Below, in pieces: positions 1-57,380 of a stretch of 64,000 nucleotides of DNA. Every line of letters starts with the position of its first letter. Position 1 is the stretch's first letter. The notes beneath the pieces are model-generated. The model saw nothing but the letters and a program-made list of their open reading frames with translations, searched no databases and was not told the origin of the DNA. Origin of the DNA: Arenicola marina (Eukaryota; Annelida; Polychaeta; Arenicolidae); assembly GCA_964019135.1 (NCBI GenBank), contig OZ025265.1, positions 24,651,143-24,715,142 on the forward strand, written 5' to 3'. The position numbers and the translations under genes are program-made.

Positions 1-366
1 GGACCCGGTGGCTACAGGGGACCCGGTGGCTACAGGGGACCCGGTAGCTACAGGGGACCCGGTGGCTACGGGGGACCCGGTGGCTACAGGGTGGACCCGG
101 TGGCTACAGGGGACCCGGTGGCTACAGGGTAAACCCGGTGGCTACAGGGGACCCGGTGGCTACAGGGGACCCGGTGGCTACGGGGGACCCGGTGGCTACA
201 GGGGACCCGGTAGCTACGGGGGACCCGGTGGCTACGGGGGACCCGGTGGCTACAGGGGACCCGGTAGCTACAGGGGACCCGGTGGCTACAGGGTGGACCC
301 GGTGGCTACAGGGGACCCGGTGGCTCCGGGAGGACCCGGTGGCTACGGGGGACCCGGTGGCCCCGG
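1..366 (+). repeat. 18-bp minisatellite at window edge
   Basis: About 20 units of GGACCCGGTGGCTACAGG, with variants (GTAGCTAC, GGCTACGG) and occasional 3-base extensions. It is cut by the window start, so the full length is unknown. Open frames through it on both strands reflect the multiple-of-three period. Confidence 0.97.
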
Positions 367-39400: not shown

Positions 39401-42400
39401 AACATCTTCGAAATGACAATTGATTGTCTTGGAAATGACAAGTGATTGTCTTGCAAATGACAATTGATTGTCTTGCAAATGACAATTGATTGCCTTGCAA
39501 ATGACAATGGATTGTCTTGCAAATGACAAGTGATTGTCTTGCAAATGACAATTGATTGTCTTGCAAATGACAATTGATTGTCTTGCAAATGACTATTGAT
39601 TGTCTTGGAAATGACAATTGATTGTCTTGGAAATGACAAGATGTTGTCTTCGGAATGTACAGTTTGAAACAGTCGATTTGTGTTGTATGTAGACAGGAGT
39701 GTTATCCAGACAAGACGGGTCATTGTGAATACAGGGGGTGCTTCATCAGGGACCGATGATTGGCACTAGGCGGAGGGGCTGTATTTTTTTGGGGGGGGGG
39801 GCAACTCTTATCTCCTCTTGAACCATCTCTCTGCGAAAGAATTTGCCTTGTCAATTTTATCTGTTTTCCCCGAATTTATTTTGATGATATTTTTGTTGGT
39901 GAAAGCATTTTATGTCCTGTCCTCTTCAAAACTGAGCCTACCCCTCCCTTCCCCCCCCCCTCTGAGAATTATGTATGTGTCCCTAAGACGTCTAGACGGT
40001 AAAGCAGCCGACAGCCCAAGCACCGTGTGACCTTACCCTTGTCCCAATGCCCGGATGTAAATGAACCAATCGGGGCGTGACGTCATAGGGAAAGCCAGCT
40101 TTACCTTCTGCATACAATTAACATAGATAGTAACATCTCCATGTATGCAAATGGGTAGCTAAGGAAAGAAAGTTTAGATTATTTAACTAGACAATTGTAT
40201 TTCCCTTTCCCTTTTGCATGGATTTCATTACATATTGGAGATCTTCCACGTGTCATGCGGGTCTTGCATAGCTGGAAATGTGCTGATGTTATGTGCTGCA
40301 ATTTATCAATCTTTCGCAAAGAGCATTTATTTTATACCCGGGTATTTATTCCCAACACATGGCTAAACCCTCCCCAAACGAAAGCTCTACTGGTGATAAT
40401 CTGTACTATAGTAGAACATCTCTACACGGAATATGCGTGGGACAGAGCGACACATTCGGTTTACCAAGGTTTATCAAGATTCCAGTACGGGTTTAAACAA
40501 AATCGAAACCTGGTAAATGTCCGATATCGACAGGATTTCAACTTCGATTTTTAAGATTCTTTTGTATATGTAGTACTAAAATTAGACTTAGTAGAGTTCA
40601 TCTACTGAGATTTTAACATATCAGGTGCACTGCTGAGCGAAAACGTAATAGAAAGCGGGGGCGGAAGGGAGGTCCCACCAAATTGACGACCAGAGGTGGG
40701 GGGAGGGGGAGGGTCCCCAATTTTTGACGATCGGGGGGCGGGGCGGGGGAGGGGGGGGGGGCTTAGATGGCCTAAATTTGGCATTGAAACGCAGCATTCT
40801 TTCACCAAAAGGGGCGGTACCCCCCCCCCCCCCCCTATCCTGGATTCGCCCCTGGAAAGGGAAAGAAGACACTACGGGAATCCATCTCGGTGACCGTAAT
40901 GCGACGTACTATAGTATTACCCATTAACACGAACAATCCTATTTGGTGCAACCCACGCACCACGCTCCGAAACAGTAGCGCCCTCTGTTGGGAGCGTCCG
41001 CCGACCGCGCCGTGGTTTTCGCATTAATATTACGTGAAGACGCCCGGCCGGTGGCGCCCTCCCACGGGCCGCCCTGGAGGCTCGCTGGCGAATCGATTGC
41101 GCCCGCCGTCTTCGGATTAGCTTTAAAGGACGGAGATGTGTCCGGTGATAGCGGCGTACGGGATGCTGTCTGGAATCTGGGGACGGGCGGTCGGTGTGGA
41201 GTCATGGGGCAGGTCGGCGTGGGACGGTGTGGAGCCCTGGGGCAGGTCCGTGTGGGACGGTGTGGAGCCCTGGGGCTGGTCGGTGTGGGACGGTGTGGAG
41301 CCCTGGGGCTGGTCGGTGTGGGACGGTGTGGAGCCGTGGAGCGGGTCGGTGTGGTTGGGTGTGGAGCGGTGTGGGTGGGTGTGGAGCCCTGGCGGGGGGG
41401 GTGGGGGGGCGGGACGGGCCGGTAGGGATATGGTTGGGTCGTGATTGGTTGGGTAACAAGAGCGATATCGCCCACTCAGTCCCTTCCCTCTCCGATACTC
41501 CCCGGGTCCCTTCTGCCCCGCCATCGCTGCCTGGGGGCAGTGGGGGGGGGGGGGCATGGCGGGGGGAGGGGTAGAGGGGGGGGGGGGTGCGGATTATGGT
41601 CACTCGGACCGTGCCACAAGGTCAGGCCCCGCGTCTCCGAGGTCATGAATTGGTGCCGGCAATGACGGTATGATGTACCTGAGAGTGTGTGTGTGTGTGT
41701 GGGGGGGGGGGGGGGGAGGGGGGGGGACCGATGTGACTGGCACGGGTGGGACGTGGGGTGGGGTACGGTATGGTATCAAGGGGTGACGTCGGTGCCAGTA
41801 TCCAGTGTGTGTGTGTATGGGGAGGGGTGAGGGTTATCCAGAAGCTCCCCTATAATAGGGTGAGAAGTCAGATTGGGTGGGATTGGTGAGAGTGGCAAGT
41901 GGTTGGCGGAGTTATTATGCCGATGTCAGGCTTAATCACTCCTTGCTTACTGAGTCCGATTTTGAGGCCCTTCATATCAAACGTTAAGGGTGTCACTTTT
42001 TTGAGAGAATGTGATAGATCTGGTGTTATTATAGAAGCGGCCAAAATATGACAAAGATATATTTAAGTGGGGCCCGGGAATAAAAAATAATAGAAAGTCG
42101 TAAAGCTTGGTGATAAATCTTCCTTCCTTCATGTGGTTATTACCAACCGTGTCTTAAAGTCAATGCGATTATTATTTATATCTGTTTTATGTTGATGTGT
42201 ATTGTGTTTTGTTTTGTCTGTCTCGCAGGGCAGCCGTCACGTGACCGTCAACGGACATTCGCACTCGTCACGTGACCCCAGCCAATCTCCGCCCGTCTTC
42301 TACAGTCTGAACGGCACCCCCGACCACAAGCCCATCCCCCACCCCCTCAGGGGCATGGGGCACTCGCTGGACGAGAGCTACCCTGCCCCGCTGCCCCCCC

Positions 42401-45400
42401 ACCACCCCCACACGCCCCAGCACCCCACCGCGCACATGGGCGCCGCCCACCCGCACCATAGCAACAACAGCCACCGTAGCAACGGTCACCATGACAGCGA
42501 TTACAGCCTCGGCGGTAACCCTTCCCAACAACGGTCACGTGACAGCGACTACCCCGGTCACCATGGCAGCCACCCGGGCGAGCTGGGGGGCTATCAGACC
42601 GGCAGTCAGGGGGTCAACCACCGGCCTCCCCCCGTCCCGCCCCACCAGTACGACCCCTACGCCTACGGAGAGCCCCACCCAGCAGGTAAGGAGGCCCATG
42701 TCATTAATGTATTTCCTCTCGGCCCTGGAATGGGGTCATTATCGCAGTTTAGGCTTATTAAAACACTCCCCCTGTCCATCTTTCCTGGCTCGTAGAGGAA
42801 TTGCTCACCTATATTATGATCTACAACATCTTTGAGAGAACTTCCTTGTCTGACTGTGTAATGGTTAACTCTGCTCGACATAGATGTTTAATCATATGTT
42901 AAAAAAAAGGCAAAAACTGCAGCAATGTCCACATTTTGATGACACTTAGCGACAGGAAATGCACCATTTTTGTCCAAAAAAAATACCTCATCAATATACC
43001 CTGGTGTTTGTTGCATACCATATATGTGTACTTGTTCTCTTAGAACATAGCAACATAATTTCTATTCGAAACATGTTTTGATTTTCTAAGGGAAACTAAA
43101 ATATACTAAATATAAATTGTTTCTCGGTAGTAGAGTGGAGTAATCCGCCCAAGGATTGGCATCGCGCCTCTACCTCTATCTCGCTACCCGTCGTTGTAGT
43201 CTACAGTCGCCCTGTCCATCTCACTTGATTTTCTTAAATTATTTAATAATAGTCAATTTGTCTCGACAGTGAAGTGAAGTAATTTGTTAAAATGAACGCC
43301 CAAGGGTTTGCATCGCGCCTCTACCTCTATCTCGCTCTCAGCCCTTGCAGTTCAGAACCTGAAGCGGACCCCGGTGAAGAGACACCACTCGACGGGGGAC
43401 ATGCTGGGCGGGGAGATCGACTTTCCCAGCCCCCCGCGCCACCACAAGCCCCGGAGACCCAAGTCGGAGGGTCACTTCTACGTGGAGGCCTTCAGACCCA
43501 AGAGGGCCTCCAGCTTCGGGGTAGGCCGCTCGCCATGGAAAGGACGTGGATTGGCGTTTTAGGCCATTTTTGTGCACATACGGGCTAAACTGGGCCAGTT
43601 TCGCACTTTATATTAAATGTTGCACAGACTTTAAATTTAAAGTTGATTGATGTAAAGAATGTGCAGAATGTTCTCTTTGGTGCAAAGTGCGAAAAGTGCA
43701 AAATTGTCCGCGTCATCAGTGGAATTTTATCTGGGAACTCGGCGTCATCTCACTGTCAATCTCTCATGTCCGTTTACATGATATAAGCCTAATAACACTT
43801 AAATAATAATCGTGCTGGCGCCATATTAATACCACATGGAGTTCTGATTGAGTTTCTTGCTGTGTTTGCAGTATAACTCGCCGTTCGGCAAGGCGGAGGC
43901 CCCACATTAATACCACATGGAGTTCTGATTGAGTTTCTTGCTGTGTTTGCAGTATAACTCGCCGTTCGGCAAGGCGGAGGCCCCACATTAATACCACATG
44001 GAGTTCTGATTGAGTTTCTTGCTGTGTTTGCAGTATAACTCGCCGTTCGGCAAGGCGGAGGCCCCACATTGATACCACATGGAGTTCTGATTGAGTTTCT
44101 TGCTGTGTTTGCAGTATAACTCGCCGTTCGGCAAGGCGGAGGCCCCACATTAATACCACATGGAGTTCTGATTGAGTTTCTTGCTGTGTTTGCAGTATAA
44201 CTCGCCGTTCGGCAAGGCGGAGGCCCCACATTGATACCACATGGAGTTCTGATTGAGTTTCTTGCTGTGTTTGCAGTATAACTCGCCGTTCGGCAAGGCG
44301 GAGGCCCCACATTAATACCACATGGAGTTCTGATTGAGTTTCTTGCTGTGTTTGCAGTATAACTCGCCGTTCGGCAAGGCGGAGGCCCCACATTAATACC
44401 ACATGGAGTTCTGATTGAGTTTCTTGCTGTGTTTGCAGTATAACTCGCCGTTCGGCAAGGCGGAGGCCCCACATTGATACCACATGGAGTTCTGATTGAG
44501 TTTCTTGCTGTGTTTGCAGTATAACTCGCCGTTCGGCAAGGCGGAGGCCCCACATTAATACCACATGGAGTTCTGATTGAGTTTCTTGCTGTGTTTGCAG
44601 TATAACTCTCCGTTCGGCAAGGCGGAGGCCCCACATTAATACCACATGGAGTTCTGATTGAGTTTCTTGCTGTGTTTGCAGTATAACTCTCCGTTCGGCA
44701 AGGCGGAGGCGTACGAAAAGCGGGAACAGCTGGGAGAGGGGTCCTACGCCACGGTCTTCAAGGGCATCAGTCTGTAAGTTACGTAAGGGCCCCCCCCACG
44801 TCACGCTCACACACTATCTGGCATAAACATTTGTACAATTATGCCTTAATTAGCATTAATTCAAATTAAAATGACTTATAGTTGTACAATTATAGTCGAT
44901 AATATTAATAATATTTATCTATTATACAAATAATAGTATTTAGTTATAATCTTTAGTTCCTATTAATATCAAGAATAATATTTAGTTATAATCTTTAGTT
45001 TCTATTAATATGAGGAATAATATTTAGTTATCATGATTATAAATCATTTAAGATAAAATGACGGCTGAGAACTGTAAAATCACTGTCAATATCTGTAAAA
45101 TAACAGTAAATGACTGTGATATTAGTTGATGAATGACTAGAGTATGAATGGCCGGTACACTGCGACTGGTTACCTGTACCTATACTATGTACCGGTACAG
45201 CTACGCTCAGCAACTCCCATCACTGGGAACCAAAATCTATTATATATTTTGTTTTTGCGTTTTAGCTTAACGAATAAAGTGGTCGCCTTGAAGGAGATTC
45301 GTCTTCAACAAGAGGAAGGCACGCCTTTTACCGCTATACGAGAGGGTAAGTCCCCCCCCCCACCCCACCCCACCCCACTACGCCCGTATTCCAGCAACGC

Positions 45401-48400
45401 CCCCCCCCACCCCACTACGCCCTGTACTGTAAATCGCCTCCCGCTCCCAGTGGCCATGTCACATAGTGTTCGTGTTTATCACATCCGGGAACTGGTCCAT
45501 GAAGATGGGGTTTATGAAGTGGGGTAGAGTAGGAGCCATGTCCCGGGGGTATCATGCTACTCTCGTCGAAGAAGAACGTGAGATCTCTGTCCCGCTGGAC
45601 TATAGACATAATGGGGCGCGAACTTACGGAACGATGACTGGCCTGGCAGAGCTCACGGGACGATGACTGACCTGGCACAGCTCACGGGACGATGACTGGC
45701 GTGGCAGAGCTCACGGGACGATGACTGGCCTGGCAGAGCTCACGGGACGATGACTGGCCTGGCAGGGCTCACGGGACGATGACTGGCCTGGCACAGCTCA
45801 CGGGACGATGACTGGCCTGGCAGAGCTCACGGGACGATGACTGGCCTGGCAGAGCTCACGGGACGATGACTGGCCTGGCAGAGCTCACGGGACGATGACT
45901 GGCCTGGCAGAGCTCACGGGACGATGACTGGCCTGCCAGGGCTCACGGGACGATGAGTGGCCTGCCAGGGCTCACGGGACGATGACTGGCCTGGCAGAGC
46001 TCACGGGACGATGACTGGCCTGGCAGAGCTCACGGGACGATGACTGGCCTGGCAGGGCTCACGGGACGATGACTGGCCTGGCAGAGCTCACGGGACGATG
46101 ACTGGCCTGGCAGAGCTCACGGGACGATGACTGGCCTGGCAGAGCTCACGGGACGATGACTAGCCTGGCAGAGCTCACGGGACGATGACTGGCCTGGCAG
46201 AGCTCACGGGACGATGACTGGCCTGGCAGAGCTCACGGGACGATGACTGGCCTGGCAGAGCTCACGGGACGATGACTGGCCTGGCAGAGCTCACGGGACG
46301 ATGACTGGCCTGGCAGAGCTCACGGGACGATGACTGGACTGGCAGAGCTCACGGGACGATGACTGGCCTGGCAGAGCTCACGGGACGATGACTGGCCTGG
46401 CAGAGCTCACGGGACGATGACTGGCCTGGCAGAGCTCACGGGACGATGACTAGCCTGGCAGAGCTCACGGGACGATGACTAGCCTGGCAGAGCTCACGGG
46501 ACGATGACTGGCCTGGCAGAGCTCACGGGACGATGACTGGCCTGGCAGAGCTCACGGGACGATGACTGGCCTGGCAGAGCTCACGGGACGATGACTGGCC
46601 TGGCAGAGCTCACGGGACGATGACTGGCCTGGCAGAGCTCACGGGACGATAACAGGCCTGGCAGAGCTCACGGGACGATGACTGGCCTGGCAGAGCTCAC
46701 GGGACGATGACTGGCCTGGCAGAGCTCACGGGACGATGACTGGCCTGGCAGAGCTCACGGGACGATGACTGGCCTGGCAGAGCTCACGGGACGATGACTG
46801 GCCTGGCAGAGCTCACGGGACGATGACTGGCCTGGCAGGGCTCACGGGACGATGACTGGCCTGGCAGAGCTCACGGGACGATGACTGGCCTGGCAGAGCT
46901 CACGGGACGATGACTGACCTGGCAGAGCTCACGGGACGATGACTGGCCTGGCAGGGCTCACGGGACGATGACTGGCCTGGCAGAGCTCACGGGACGATGA
47001 CTGGCCTGGCAGAACTCACAGGACGATGACTGGCGTGGCAGAGCTCACGGGACGATGACTGGCCTGGCAGAGCTCACGGGACGATGACTGGCCTGGCAGA
47101 GTTCACGGGACGATGACTGGCCTGGCAGAGCTCACGGGACGATGACTGGTCTGGCAGGGCTCACGGGACGTTGACTGGCCTGGCAGAGCTCACGGGACGA
47201 TGACTGGCCTGGCAGAGCTCACGGGACGATGACTGGCCTGGCAGAGCTCACGGGACGATGACTGGCCTGGCAGAGCTCACGGGACGATGACTGGCCTGGC
47301 AGAGCTCACGGGACGATGACTGGCGTGGCAGAGCTCACGGGACGATGACTGGCCTGGCAGAGTTCACGGGACGATGACTAGCCTGGCAGAGCTCACGGGA
47401 CGATGACTGGCCTGGCAGAGCTCACGGGACGATGACTGGCCTGGCAGGGCTCACGGGACGATGACTGGCCTGGCAGAGCTCACGAGACGATGACTGGCCT
47501 GGCAGAGCTCACGGGACGATGACTGGCCTGGCAGAGCTCACGGGACGATGACTGGCCTGGCAGAGCTCACGGGACGATGACTGGCCTGGCAGAGCTCACG
47601 GGACGATGACTGGTCTGGCAGGGCTCACGGGACGATGACTGGCCTGGCAGAGCTCACGGGACGATGACTGGCCTGGCTGAGCTCACGGGACGATGACTGG
47701 CCTGGCAGGGCTCACGGGACGTTGACTGGCCTGGCAGAGGTCACGGGACGATGACTGGCCTGGCAGAGCTCACGGGACGATGACTGGCCTGGCAGAGCTC
47801 ACGCGACGATGACTGGCCTGGCAGGGCTCACGGGACGATGACTGGCCTGGCAGAGCTCACGGGACGATGACTGGCCTGGCAGAGCTCACGGGACGATGAC
47901 TGGCCTGGCAGAGCTCCCGGGACGATGACTGGCCTGGCAGGGCTCACGGGACGATGACTGGCCTGGCAGAGCTCACGGGACGATGACTGGCCTGGCAGAG
48001 CTCACGGGACGATGACTGGCCTGGCAGAGCTCACGGGACGATGACTGGCCTGGCAGGGCTCACGGGACGATGACTGGCCTGGCAGAGCTCACGGGACGAT
48101 GACTGACCTGGCAGAGCTCACGGGACGATGACTGGCCTGGCAGGGCTCACGGGACGATGACTGGCCTGGCAGAGCTCACGGGACGATGACTGGCCTGGCA
48201 GGGCTCACGGGACATTAACTGGCCTGGCAGAGCTCACGGGACGATGACTGGCCTGGCAGAGCTCACGGGACGATGACTGGCGTGGCAGACCTCACTCGAC
48301 AAAATCAAGCGCTAACGAGGTCATTTTCACAAAGCCTGCGACTTAGACTACATGATGTTATTAGTGGTGCTGGAGCAAAACTGTGATTCCGTATAAATAA

Positions 48401-51400
48401 CTGCCTGAGTGAGTGTGTTCGCCGCATATGTATCGTATGCAGTAGATGTGTATACTCTACTAGTTATTAGTTGGTTTTTAATTAGTTATTTGTATACTAT
48501 ACAGTAGTCACCTGCTGGTCCTGGTTTTACCTAGAAACAAGTCATTGATGAGCTAAATTCACACGGGTTATGCTGAATCTTCTTAAAAACCGTAAAATTT
48601 TATCGAGTAGTGAACTTTTTAACTAGCGTTAAAGAAGGTTGTCAACTATATAACTAACTACAGTTTTGCAGTAATATAATTAATACCACAACTAACGCTG
48701 TCAACGTACGCTACATCCTGCCATTAAAGCACGTGTCATTCTGACACTCGCTGTCCGCTCGGTGTGACCGTGCCTACATCCTGTCATTAAAGCACGTGTC
48801 ATTCTGACACTCGCTGTCCGCTCGGTGTGACCGTGCCTACATCCTGTCATTAAAGCACGTGTCATTCTGACACTCGCTGTCCGCTCGGTGTGACCGTGCC
48901 TACATCCTGTCATTAAAGCACGTGTCATTCTGACACTCGCTGTCCGCTCGGTGTGACCGTGCCTACATCCTGTCATTAAAGCACGTGTCATTCTGACACT
49001 CGCTGTCCGCTCGGTGTGACCGTGCCTACATCCTGTCATTAAAGCACGTGTCATTCTGACACTCGCTGTCCGCTCGGTGTGACCGTGCCTACATCCTGCC
49101 ATTAAAGCACGTGTCATTCTGACACTCGCTTTCCGCTCGGTGTGACCGTGCCTACATCCTGTCATTAAAGCACGTGTCATTCTGACACTCGCTTTCCGCT
49201 CGGTGTGACCGTGCCTACATCCTGTCATTAAAGCACGTGTCATTCTGACACTCGCTTTCCGCTCGGTGTGACCGTGCCTACATCCTGTCATTAAAGCACG
49301 TGTCATTCTGACACTCGCTTTCCGCTCGGTGTGACCGTGCCTACATCCTGCCATTAAAGCACGTGTCATTCTGACACTCGCTTTCCGCTCGGTGTGACCG
49401 TGCCTACATCCTGTCATTAAAGCACGTGTCATTCTGACACTCGCTTTCCGCTCGGTGTGACCGTGCCTACATCCTGTCATTAAAGCACGTGTCATTCTGA
49501 CACTCGCTTTCCGCTCGGTGTGACCGTGCCTACATCCTGTCATTAAAGCACGTGTCATTCTGACACTCGCTGTCCGCTCGGTGTGACCGTGCCTACATCC
49601 TGTCATTAAAGCACGTGTCATTCTGACACTCGCTGTCCGCTCGGTGTGACCGTGCCTACATCCTGTCATTAAAGCACGTGTCATTCTGACACTCGCTGTC
49701 CGCTCGGTGTGACCGTGCCTACATCCTGTCATTAAAGCACGTGTCATTCTGACACTCGCTGTCCGCTCGGTGTGACCGTGCCTACATCCTGTCATTAAAG
49801 CACGTGTCATTCTGACACTCGCTGTCCGCTCGGTGTGACTGTGCCTACATCCTGTCATTAAAGCACGTGTCATTCTGACACTCGCTGTCCGCTCGGTGTG
49901 ACCGTGCCTACATCCTGTCATTAAAGCACGTGTCATTCTGACACTCGCTGTCCGCTCGGTGTGACCGTGCCTACATCCTGTCATTAAAGCACGTGTCATT
50001 CTGACACTCGCTGTCCGCTCGGTGTGACCGTGCCTACATCCTGTCATTAAAGCACGTGTCATTCTGACACTCGCTGTCCGCTCGGTGTGACCGTGCCTAC
50101 ATCCTGTCATTAAAGCACGTGTCATTCTGACACTCGCTGTCCGCTCGGTGTGACCGTGCCTACATCCTGTCATTAAAGCACGTGTCATTCTGACACTCGC
50201 TGTCCGCTCGGTGTGACCGTGCCTACATCCTGTCATTAAAGCACGTGTCATTCTGACACTCGCTGTCCGCTCGGTGTGACCGTGCCTACATCCTGTCATT
50301 AAAGCACGTGTCATTCTGACACTCGCTGTCCGCTCGGTGTGACCGTGCCTACATCCTGTCATTAAAGCACGTGTCATTCTGACACTCGCTGTCCGCTCGG
50401 TGTGACCGTGCCTACATCCTGTCATTAAAGCACGTGTCATTCTGACACTCGCTGTCCGCTCGGTGTGACCGTGCCTACATCCTGTCATTAAAGCACGTGT
50501 CATTCTGACACTCGCTGTCCGCTCGGTGTGACCGTGCCTACATCCTGTCATTAAAGCACGTGTCATTCTGACACTCGCTGTCCGCTCGGTGTGACCGTGC
50601 CTACATCCTGTCATTAAAGCACGTGTCATTCTGACACTCGCTGTCCGCTCGGTGTGACCGTGCCTACATCCTGTCATTAAAGCACGTGTCATTCTGACAC
50701 TCGCTGTCCGCTCGGTGTGACCGTGCCTACATCCTGTCATTAAAGCACGTGTCATTCTGACACTCGCTGTCCGCTCGGTGTGACCGTGCCTACATCCTGT
50801 CATTAAAGCACGTGTCATTCTGACACTCGCTGTCCGCTCGGTGTGACCGTGCCTACATCCTGTCATTAAAGCACGTGTCATTCTGACACTCGCTTTCCGC
50901 TCGGTGTGACCGTGCCTACATCCCGTTGGTACGTAAACATAGACACCGCCACATCCGTCTGTTTGTCTCCCGTAAAATGAAAATAGGATGAGGGTAGGGT
51001 CCTACTTAGCTGCTTAACTACCCGTGACCAGCCGGTTATGTGTAACCTTTAGTACCATTACATATTTATGCACACTATTGGCAGGATACTTGAATAATAT
51101 TTCTTTTCCACTGAAGTGGGAATGTCTGTTTTTGCTCTCGCTAAAGTTAAACTTCTTATAGCATTTTTTAATATATCTATGCACACTACTGGTAAGTAAA
51201 TTTAATGACCTGAAATATTTTCGACTGAAGTGCGAATTTCTGTTTTTGCTATCACTGAATATATACTTTTTAGGGCTTGCAATCTGTCACATGGGTAATT
51301 ATGGCGGGCAGGAGCTATGGCTATACTGTGTAATTGGTACTGATTGTCGAAAACCGCGATGCCTCCGTACCTCAGTTGGTAGTAAGGTGAACCTTATGAT

Positions 51401-54400
51401 CCGGATTTAAAGGACCTGGGTTCAATCCCTAAACTTTTCGTCTGAGTGCAGGAGATTTCTCCGCCTGATGTGACCTAACTCTGCACAAATAAGGTTCTAG
51501 ACCCTATTCACTACATCAACTGGGAAGATGGAGTTATTTCTCCAGGTAGTGTGTTCCTGTTGGAATATTCCCATTATCGTGACCACATAATTTTTGACTT
51601 CAACCGTCATGCACGATTCAGTCTATATAAGCGTAAAACTGACGCGTGAATCCTTGTTGAAGAATGCCGCTACCCTTCATTGACATCCACTTTGCTTTTT
51701 CGCTATTTGCGCTGATTGGTTATGTGTGTTACATTGTTGACCCTCGTTTGACCTTGCAGCGTCCCTCCTGAAGGGCCTGAAGCACGCTAACATCGTGACG
51801 TTACATGACATCATCCACACCAAGGACACGCTGACCTTCGTTTTTGAGTTCGTGGTGAGTAGTACGTGAGCGATGTAATGCATCGCGCGGAAGGTCATCT
51901 GAACTGATCCCCCCAACTTCCAAGCGCTAACTCTGGTCATGACCAGGAAGTCGCCTTTATCTTGTCCTTGACTCTAGAATGAGTGACGCCGACATGAAGC
52001 ACATGACCTAACTCCGGCATGTCTCCGCTTCGGCTTGCATAGAGCGTTCGTGCCCGGCTATACTGTACAGCCAGCTGGTCTATCAGTACGTGTATCATGA
52101 ACCACAGAGTGTGCTCGGGTGATGATCATATGGCGAACCCTACTCAGCCTAAGTCACCACCATAGATACCTAATTGTTTCTACACTGCAGCCCCAACCCT
52201 CTCCCATGCTGTACATCGCATGGGGTCAATCTGCCGCGAAACAAGCCCTGTACGTCAATTCAATGGCATTGGTGATTTCTACCATTGGTATTTACTGATG
52301 AAATACTGCCCATTCCATTTCATACATATGCCAGTCATTATATGCCATTACATGTCAGTAACAAACTGACCTCGTGATAATGTCATTACATGCCATTACA
52401 TGTACATGTTATTACATGTTATTACATGTCATCACATTTCATTACATATCTTTACAGAATACAGATTTGAGTCAGTATCTGGAGAAGCGACGCGGCGGTC
52501 TCAATCCGCGTAACGTCAAGGTCAGTGAATCTCAAGGTCGCTGGGTCGTATACAATGTCCTTGTGGAAATTTCTGATAACAAATCTTCCCGGACTTGGAT
52601 TTGTTGGTTAAAGGCTATGGTATCATTGTGTGCACTTTATGTGCCCAATAGCGGATTAAAACACCCTGATATAACAATTGTGTACATGGCGTGATTGATT
52701 ACTTAGTAAATGGACCATGAGTCTTGATGTGTCTTTTGTGGTAAGCGCAAAATGGTCTGATTTTCTGTACATGTTATCGATGGTATATATCTATCCTGGC
52801 GTCTGCTTTCAGCTGTTTCTCTTTCAACTTCTGCGGGGGTTGGCGTTCTGCCACCAGCGGAGAATTCTCCACCGGTAGGTGTCTCTGTCTCTTAGACCGC
52901 TGGTCGTGTACGATATACGATGGCCCTATAAATCTGCTCGCATTTTGTAGCGGTTCAGGTTTTAGGGTAAATTTACCTAAATATGTATGAAGTAAAGTTA
53001 CCTGATCCAAACAGAATGTTCCGCCACGATTTATCACATTGTGCAAGCACGAGACGTCACCTTGTGACCTGACCATGTGACATGGGTCACTTTTTACCTC
53101 AGCCATGTATTATGAAAAGACCTGTTACTGTACATGGATGTGTGGTCGCAAGATAAAGGTCTTCGCGAAGAGTTAGGGATTACTCGGAGGACATGGCTCC
53201 TCTCCGCTCTTCCCGTCCTTCTCACTTGGACGCGATATGACCAGAATTGGTTAGAGCGTCTTGAATTTACAACCTACCAACTGTGTATGGAACGGTTCTA
53301 ATTCCATTGTTATATTGTCTTTGTTGCAGTGATCTCAAGCCACAGAATCTGCTCATCAGTGAGATCGGCGAGCTCAAGTTAGCCGATTTCGGTAAGTCCG
53401 TGACGCCTAAATACCGAAATGTTATGATCTGCGTGGATCCCATTTAACTTGGTTAAATTCAGTGTTCATGTCATTTATGTTGTATCAAGGTCAATTGTCG
53501 TTCAAGTACTGCCACATTACTTTACATGTAGCAAATCGGTTTGGTTCTAATCTAGCGTCAATGCAAGAAACGATACAGTAAGAGAGACAGGAAAGTTTTC
53601 AATATTAAGGTCAAATAAATTGTGGGTATTATTACTTCGAATGCTTAGCTTTCAATTATATTAATTAATTATGGGTGTTATTACTTTGAGTATGAATTAA
53701 CTTACATATGATCATAATAGTAATCATAATGATCATAATAGTAATCATAATGATCATAATAGTAATCATAATGATCATAATAGTAATCATAATGATCATA
53801 ATAGTAATCATAATGATCATAATAGTAATCATAATGATCATAATAGTAATCATAATGATCATAATAGTAATCATAATGATCATAATAGTAATCATAATGA
53901 TCATAATAGTAATCATCATGATCATAATAGTAATCATCATGATCATAATAGTAATCATAATGATCATAATAGTAATTATAATGATCATAATAGTAATCAT
54001 AATGATCATAATAGTAATCATCATGATCATAATAGTAATCATCATGATCATAATAGTAATCATAATGATCATAATAGTAATCATAATGATCATAATAGTA
54101 ATCATAATGATCATAATAGTAATTATAATGATCATAATAGTAATCATCATGATCATAATAGTAATCATAATGATCATAATAGTAATCATAATGATCATAA
54201 TAGTAATCATAATAGTAATCATAATGATCATAATAGTAATCATAATGATCATAATAGTAATCATAATGATCATAATAGTAATCATAATGATCATAATAGT
54301 AATTATAATGATCATAATAGTAATCATAAGATTGCACTTAATGGCTTTTGGGTTTTTTTATTGTAAAAATGTTGTGCTTTGTCGCAAATTAAATGTTTCT

Positions 54401-54441
54401 ATTTTTGTGCCATGGGCCTGGTGCCTACAGTTTGAAATAAA

Positions 54442-54475
<34 letters not shown>

Positions 54476-57341
54476 GTAATCATAATAGTAATAGTGCCTG
54501 AATACAAACGTTGCTGGTGGTTTACTGTGCGTATCCTCGTATCGCCCCTTGCGTCCCCGTTCGGATGCTGATGTGAGCTGCCGTTTGGTTTCAGGGTTGG
54601 CGCGCGCCAAGTCCGTGCCGAGTCACACGTACTCACACGAGGTCGTGACCTTGTGGTACCGCCCGCCAGACGTCCTCCTGGGGTCGACCGACTACTCCAC
54701 CCCGCTCGACATATGGTCAGTGCTCGCTGCGAGGCCAGTGGGGGGGGGGGCGGGGGGGCGATAAGGGGTTAAAGAAACCGGGGAGGGAGAGATTGGTCTA
54801 ACATTGGGTCAGCGTCTGCTTGACTTGGTATTGGATGAGAGTTGTGGAACTGGAATGGGTCGGAAGCTAAACAAAAAAACATGTGAATTACATGGAGTTG
54901 AGAGAATACGTCACATACGACCGTGACCTTGACCTTGGCATGGCTCCTTGACCAATTGTTCAGCCCAAAAACGTCTCTGTTTGGCAGAGAAGATACGCCC
55001 ACCATTCACCAATACAGGGAGGCCCATTTCCTGTGTACGACCATGTCAAAAGTACATGTATATCACTTCACTAGATCTACTGTATATCAATTCAATTCTT
55101 ATACCGCTGTCTTACGAAAGTAAGTGACGTATGCCGCCATCTTACAAAAGTGGGACAATTCCAAGATCGTATTACATCACTCGTATTAATCTCACACCTG
55201 ACTGTACCTAAATTACCGGAAATGACGTTATTTTGGCCTCCATAGGGGAATTGGATGCATCTTCACGGAGATGGTTTCCGGGGACGCCACCTTTCCCGGC
55301 ATGAAGGACGCCTGGGATCAGCTGGACCGGATATGGAGGGTGAGTCGGGAGTCCTGCGAGGCGGGTATGAGCTCACTGACTTCTCGGGAGTTGGAAAAAT
55401 GTTATATGCTTGTGCTTTAAAGCCTTTTGTACACGTGGCGGTTAAACTGGGCAATAAATCTTCTGGGACAATAAACTTGGGTGATACTTGCCCCAGCTGC
55501 CAGGTGTCAGGATTCGCACCCATGACCTTTTGATTTGTTTTTACAACTGAGTCTGGGGAAGGTAATACCGTTATCAATGCTTACGCTTAAGCCCATCAGT
55601 TGTATGATAATGGGGCCTCTCATTGAAACGTTTCTAGCTCTTTAACGAGCACGATGACACATATATTTGTTTTCATTTTTGAATTCGGAATATAAGGCTC
55701 TTCACATAGTGTAAAACTTATAAAACTATACGAAAAAAGTGTGTCATACATTCTTTATACGGTAATAGATTCACCTACACTAACGCTAAAACTAGACCGC
55801 CAAGTTGTTTTGCTATGAACAGCATAGTTCATGTTCTATTTCCTTGTAGCTCACGTATGTGACGTAATCTGTTTGTCCTGTCGCTAGGTGCTGGGAACGC
55901 CGTCTGAAGACGTCTGGGAAGGTGTGACGTCATACCCTAACTACAGCATAGGTGGGACTTCATTCGTTGTCTGTAGATATTGATATTGTGTGTGCTTCCT
56001 TGATCGCTAACTGAAGTTCATCGATGCTTTAACGTGTGCTTTATTTTGCGTGGCTTCATACTGCATCTTGTAATCGGGGGGGGTGAGTGGGGAGGGGAGA
56101 GGGTGGGCGGCGAGGGATATCTGCGCCTTCCGTCACTAGGCGGCGCCACCGCAGTCGGCGTCCAGGAAGTGACGTCGTAAGTGTAACAATTGTGTTCGTT
56201 TACAAAGAAACGAGTGCGGTGGATCGTGTATATTTGCTTGAAGAAGACTCGTTTTGGACCTTAAAGAAACCATATTTATTACATTGCAAATGGTAAATAT
56301 TAACCTGGACACGAAGTTGTATCCGTCATGCATCGGGATGCCCTGTCCTTAGTAGAACAACACGTTAAATCGTAATTGTTAATTTATGACATTTACTTTC
56401 TTTAAAATGGTACCTTGCTCTACTTTGTTTCCTGAACATGTCTGGTCCCCCTAAACTGCTGGCGCTGCTGTGGTAATTTTACTTCAATATTTTAGTCGTC
56501 TAGCCGTGCAGGCATGTACCTATCAATATATGTATCTATCAATGAACAGAGCGAGAAGTGTGTTTTCGATTTGTTGATGCCCTTTATGTACGTGAAGCAG
56601 GTTTGATATTGGACTGTTTCTGCTTTCTTCCAGAGAAGTTCGGTCGCTACGTGCCGCAGAAGTTATCCACAGTGATCCCCAAGCTCGCTCACATTCCACA
56701 CGCCGAAGTCCTGGCCCAAGAATTGCTACAGGTGCGTAGTGCGTCCGAACTGTAGACCCCTCATTCTGGCTCTGGGTCCAACGTTACTTTACATTACATT
56801 AACCCGAGGTTAAATCGTCCTATTTAATGCTAACCTCTCAACTGGTTCGACTACATTGTACTAATCATCATTCCCACTGCATCTGATTATAGAAAAGTTA
56901 CAGCAGCCCGAGTTTTGCTATTTCGAAAACCGAAATGTTACTGTACGCAAACCGATATAGACAATACATTAACTCGATTGAGCTATGCTGAAGGCCGGAA
57001 TTTCCCTGTATACAGTCATTACTTGTTTATTTCCAGTTAATACCCAGGAAACGCATCAGTGCCAAGGACGCCCTCTTGCACCGCTACTTCTCTGACCTTC
57101 CCAAGAAAATATATGACCTTCCCAATGGTAAATGCGACACAGACTTTGATTCGTCATATTTGGGAACACTTCGATGTTAAAAGAACATCTTAAATCGTTG
57201 TTGTACATCTATGAAATGGCTATTTAGGACTGAAATAATACGATAGCTTATGGGCTTCATTCGCAGTCCTTGGCGTGAGTATAGTTTATGAATGGTAAAT
57301 ATTAACCTCCTGCGAATGACCGATACGTTTTCAGACGCCTA

Positions 57342-57380
<39 letters not shown>

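Follow-up and report, generated by a model that had tools for sequence, protein, structure and literature searches.

The window, the whole 64,000-nucleotide stretch of Arenicola marina DNA that was analysed, contains on its forward strand a kinase gene which, judged by its homologues and reading frame, is intact and of the CDK14/PFTAIRE type. From 43351 onward the exons maintain an open frame, are separated by GT-AG introns, and encode a complete kinase domain: all 263 positions of the Pfam Pkinase profile (1e-63) are matched, by residues 68-352 of the 398 that were read. Among the best 120 matches listed, the nearest homologues were unnamed sequences of 82% and 81% identity; named homologues were found in Owenia (76%, cyclin-dependent kinase) and Lineus (78%, CDK14-like). 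The kinase domain starts where an 81-bp minisatellite, the CDK14 array, stops. The features of the locus are listed below by window position; here and throughout, a slash within a motif marks an exon border or break point.

42229..42688, forward strand: upstream coding exon, 5' border approximate, similar to P0001
43351..43520, forward strand: preceding exon, ending ...RASSFG/gtaggc, open frame, GT-AG borders
43817..44710, forward strand: 81-bp minisatellite, 11.0 units, over the intron end and exon start (Tandem Repeats Finder)
43872..43910, forward strand: first decoy acceptor, with a 12-residue coding-like stretch and a stop; nine more decoys follow, one per 81 nt, the last from 44601
44653..44681, forward strand: branchpoint-like word, pyrimidine tract and TTTGCAG of the productive acceptor, with identical letters before every decoy
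44682..44773, forward strand: productive 92-nt exon, the first 29 nt being the last array copy, followed by the kinase domain
44774..44779, forward strand: donor gtaagt of the productive exon
45266..57578, forward strand: 11 more exons, which complete the CDK14-type kinase (open frame, GT-AG borders, homology)
Further exons 1-6, forward strand: 45266-45345, 51760-51854, 52458-52520, 52813-52874, 53330-53391, 54595-54715
Further exons 7-11, forward strand: 55246-55339, 55888-55951, 56634-56731, 57037-57127, 57480 to stop

Two very long minisatellites, at 45626-48295 (29 bp x 92) and 48711-50923 (63 bp x 35), lie in the next kinase intron but one and are clear of the kinase exons.

The CDK14 array was found at a single location in the assembly. 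Its units match at 98% with 0% indels, and each joins some 50 nt from the end of the intron to the exon's first 29 nt. All 11 units carry a pyrimidine tract, a CAG acceptor (within TTTGCAG) and, about 24 nt upstream of the AG, the branchpoint-like word TTCTGAT. The first exon base falls at 43872+81k, with a spacing of exactly 81 nt and the last at 44682. From -43 to +29 the 11 acceptors are alike except for one synonymous base in the third exon codon (TCG in units 1-9, TCT in units 10-11). Position -44, which belongs to the stop codon of the preceding unit, is A or G, so that the decoy units end in TAA (7/10) or TGA (3/10). Unit 1 has extra differences further upstream, at its junction with the unique intron. 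Units so alike would mean either recent growth of the array or recent homogenisation. Folding of the unit RNA, tried in two frames, was no better than in shuffles (z 1.15 and 0.07), and no inverted repeats of at least 8 nt within 90 nt were found between 43700 and 44800. A reverse-strand frame of 349 residues also crosses the array; a unit length divisible by three eases such frames.

Repeat finder and unit-by-unit comparison thus agree with the original prediction of an 81-bp array bearing 11 equivalent acceptors, and the gene model bears out the donor at 43520 and the 92-nt exon at 44682-44773 that it had named. Computed translations likewise confirmed its claim about the outcome of splicing. 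From 43520, each of units 1-10 yields 12 residues and then a stop, identical for all ten, and only unit 11 reads on, through 11 more exons, to the end of the intact kinase. The resulting exon would measure 92 nt for unit 11, 173 nt for unit 10 and 254 nt for unit 9, and up to 902 nt. As a general rule, a stop well ahead of an exon junction leads to transcript decay. Since no decoy stop is closer than 134 nt to the next junction downstream, decay would be the expected fate of decoy-spliced transcripts, and is more likely than a truncated protein. Because everything nearer is identical, what distinguishes unit 11 must presumably be its position or the exon sequence past +29. Beyond +29 the purine fraction is 0.60 in the productive exon and 0.40 in the decoy. 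Values of 0.39 to 0.57 in the remaining exons of the gene make this difference only weak, suggestive support for exon enhancers. Within the unit no usable donor was found, the best candidate scoring 2.5 where the two real donors score 5.5 and 6.0; it is therefore unlikely that single units are used as exons.

Repeats of this kind have been described in amphioxus, as the original prediction had stated. In the available text of PMC3087553 and PMC3902484, "mirage" minisatellites span intron-exon boundaries in Adh3, TnC, the globins BflGb6 and BflGb9, and PGBD5; they occur at acceptors or at donors, repeat the splice signals and change in length, and regular splicing is kept. The CDK14 array likewise crosses a boundary and repeats splice signals, and on this structure it is a mirage minisatellite. 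It differs from the amphioxus cases, as far as that text describes them, in belonging to an annelid rather than a cephalochordate, in lying in a CDK14-type kinase gene, in being known here from DNA alone, and in unit number (11 near-identical units, with as many as 72 in one sister array, compared with 3 or 6 in BflGb6). The COX1 encoded on contig C762 places the animal among errant annelids and not with amphioxus: among the 120 matches listed, the best named ones were the annelids Pilargis wolfi (91%), Namalycastis (90%) and Saccocirridae (87%), and Pilargis belongs to Errantia, Phyllodocida. Intronic minisatellites are also reported for an annelid, in earthworm metallothionein genes (PMC12783039), where extra copies of exon 4 are absent from the transcript; unlike the CDK14 array, no splice-boundary repeat is described in the available part of that source.

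The original prediction had advised a search for other boundary-spanning repeats. The area searched was the 280 kb around the window and 50 kb more (L032-L036), with a crude exon finder that was trained on the CDK14 kinase and missed exons, so that the mirage count is a lower bound for these stretches. In the 330 kb examined, four further boundary arrays of separate origin were found, all at donors: two in an ARP3 gene, one in an acyl-CoA synthetase family and one in a PKN-type gene. The CDK14 array thus stands out less than had been implied.

L013:6515-7149 (G000:C20:24731657-24732291): ARP3 array 1, 31-bp units, 17 copies, 13 exact CCAGTAGTGAGT
L013:9509-10000 and L014:1-389: ARP3 array 2, 21-bp units, 42.5 copies, 37 AAGGTAGG
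L027:2944-4140, L029:4792-6016, L032:2733-2952 and L033:4012-4725: acyl-CoA synthetase arrays, 28-bp units, with 42.7, 43.7, 7.9 and 25.5 copies in that order
L036:2528-4465: PKN-type array, 27-bp units, 71.9 copies, 59 CAGGTGAGG

The genes were recognized by comparison with solved structures (Arp3, 1.1e-47; PKN2, 4.6e-151) and by Pfam (AMP-binding, 1.4e-26; Actin, 1.4e-14). Both ARP3 arrays lie in the gene body at donors, and none other was counted there; several ARP3 exon borders, placed by tblastn, are approximate. At array 1 the exon ends ...DSGDGVTHIIPV/gtgagt, each 31-bp unit repeats the final 12 exon bases and the donor, and the intron is almost entirely made of such units. Array 2 belongs to the exon ...SGGKLK/gtaggc and starts 7 nt inside it. 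The synthetase arrays stand at the exon ...KYKGYQ/gtgggt in four paralogues, and the PKN array at ...DHKIVY(R)/gtgagg, where every unit reads KIVYR-stop in frame. In ARP3, the synthetase and PKN alike, the known protein needs the first donor of the array. Translation continued beyond the true donor runs into a stop: five residues on in ARP3 array 2, four in the synthetase, 31 in ARP3 array 1, and in PKN directly behind the split codon. A second PKN array, at a later exon (L036:5143-5554), starts at intron +5 and hence was rejected as a mirage. Two further observations were made alongside. The last ARP3 exon exists in two differing copies about 5.6 kb apart (L014:2061-2153 and L014:7698-7787), which could be a duplicated terminal exon, an alternative one or a pseudogene. 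Elsewhere in the assembly, a long 39-bp array (G000:C1:606016-612276), whose listed units contain GATACAG/GTAAGT, seems to be a further donor array. We found no report of boundary minisatellites outside amphioxus in the open-access literature, judged mostly by title and abstract; as far as that literature shows, mirages are now present in a second phylum, where they are seemingly frequent.

We favor, with a probability of about 0.72, ordinary minisatellite growth over a splice site, in which the kinase survives because splicing takes the outermost site, the one giving the shortest exon. The reconstructed order of events would be as follows: a segment straddling the acceptor was tandemly duplicated, perhaps through the short shared word GGCG, which is present at both break points (intron GCTGGCG/CCATATT, exon GGAGGCG/TACG). 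Minisatellite turnover, in a repeat-rich genome, would then have brought the array to eleven units. The gene would survive because the spliceosome mostly pairs the donor at 44774 with the nearest acceptor, that of unit 11, and units 1-10 would be removed with the intron. Any leakage into units 1-10 would give stop-bearing transcripts that are probably lost to decay. The same rule would apply to the donor arrays, in which the correct mRNA comes from the outermost site, here the first donor and again the shortest exon. In favor of this reading are the equivalence of the units, the kinase arising from unit 11 alone, and the early stop common to all decoys, along with the sister donor arrays, the 24.9% repeat cover of the region, and the amphioxus mirages, which are reported to be spliced normally. 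Other points count against it. Exon size, as had been proposed, may rescue the last site, but by itself it is a poor discriminator: units 10 and 9 would give exons of ordinary length (173 and 254 nt), so distance alone may not exclude them. In laboratory constructs, moreover, duplicated strong donors favor the intron-proximal copy, the opposite of what the donor arrays need.

Splice sites might instead be preferred birthplaces of minisatellites in the Arenicola genome, so that the overlap is not due to chance; we consider this rather unlikely. Arrays are abundant (33 of period at least 10 and score at least 100 in the window, covering 24.8%; 89 in the 280 kb around it, covering 24.9%). When intronic arrays were placed at random within their introns, 5/34 lay over an exon edge where 1.73 were expected (P=0.011), or 4/33 against 1.56 without the CDK14 case (P=0.034); an earlier version of the test gave 4/31 against 1.49 (P=0.024). 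However, the cases are few and were in part gathered post hoc, and the intron and array lengths were typed in, some of them approximate: three O-methyltransferase arrays were entered as 100 nt, the far end of the synthetase intron was assumed, and the four synthetase paralogues formed one count. The second PKN array was scored as not anchored, and L034 and L035, where one array apiece lay apart from the exons located, were left out since their introns were undefined. In the long first intron of CDK14, 20 arrays lie clear of any known exon, as do three in the O-methyltransferase gene. Rotation of the arrays in the window pointed the other way, with only 1/28 modelled splice sites inside arrays against 6.8 expected (P(1 or fewer)=0.048).

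Nor were the array units overall clearly enriched in donor words. At threshold 8, such words were present in 7/89 units, where shuffles gave 6.0 and the reversed word 4; at threshold 9 there were 3 against 1.2 (P=0.095). In the whole assembly (867 Mb, 762 contigs), three AGGTAAGT at gaps of 10-40 nt gave 1296+2548 matches, compared with 1425+1100 for the pattern read backwards (3844 vs 2525), which favors a birthplace bias, but these are matches rather than arrays and long arrays weigh heavily, so that the genome-wide excess would be at most modest. The match positions listed include nine clusters on the plus strand of C1. Donor words as a general minisatellite seed, with no clear excess in the 89 local arrays and a mild one genome-wide, were rejected. 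Searches of the assembly also returned five kinase matches of equal score about 8.54 kb apart (G000:C5:5402476-5437356), a tandem gene array, and kinase matches with in-frame TAG or TAA, and mostly no TGA, on small contigs (C443, C465, C504, C330, C652 and others); this codon usage suggests ciliate contamination.

A broader view is doubtful: in this annelid lineage minisatellites would be born preferentially at splice sites, whether the gene has a housekeeping or a signalling role, and would convert introns to ladders with as many as about 70 matching donors or acceptors. A strict outermost-site, shortest-exon rule would keep the genes working, and splicing efficiency would be slowly retuned by unit number, which would differ among individuals and among paralogues. 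An intron with a donor ladder might also keep many U1 particles bound along its length.

The synthetase paralogues illustrate how such arrays change. Two of them (L027, L029) belong to an inverted duplication of about 10 kb with 97.4% identity, and their arrays, 98.2% identical over 1249 aligned bases, are one internal 28-nt unit apart. Given this one-unit difference, and about 8 and 25 units in the other paralogues, splice-site arrays change by whole units, a comparison that covers the synthetase family alone. The fourth paralogue (about 25 units) has a one-base exon deletion and is perhaps a pseudogene. Variation of this kind, from 7.9 to 43.7 units among paralogues and by a single unit between near-identical copies, together with the eleven equivalent acceptors, is what a dose switch would exploit: decoys would compete with the productive site, and stop-bearing transcripts would scale with unit number, tuning the kinase level or making truncated protein. 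Normal splicing is nevertheless reported for the amphioxus arrays in the accessible text of PMC3087553 and PMC3902484, and similar arrays stand in ARP3, where strong loss of correct mRNA would presumably be costly. We regard a dose switch as improbable, and the ratio-setting role that the original prediction assigned to the CDK14 array as unsupported.

Tandem repeats are prone to misassembly, and the available text of PMC3087553 contains one amphioxus case, but an assembly artefact is highly improbable for an array of <1 kb inside a 33 Mb contig, with an irregular pattern of unit variants and four more loci of like structure. Recursive or stepwise splicing through the CDK14 units is barely credible: joining the preceding exon to a unit does create a weak GT (CGG/GTATAA), but its score of 4.5 is under those of the two real donors (5.5, 6.0), and splicing there would drop a base and break the frame.

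Ordinary growth over splice sites, the reading that we prefer, carries implications beyond one kinase. That five arrays of separate origin were met in a small annelid sample suggests that any minisatellite-rich genome will make them. Boundary arrays are natural experiments on how one splice site is chosen among matching neighbours. Intron-proximal choice, if it were used, would spoil ARP3, PKN and the synthetase, and the rule that this animal follows could therefore be learned straight from its RNA.
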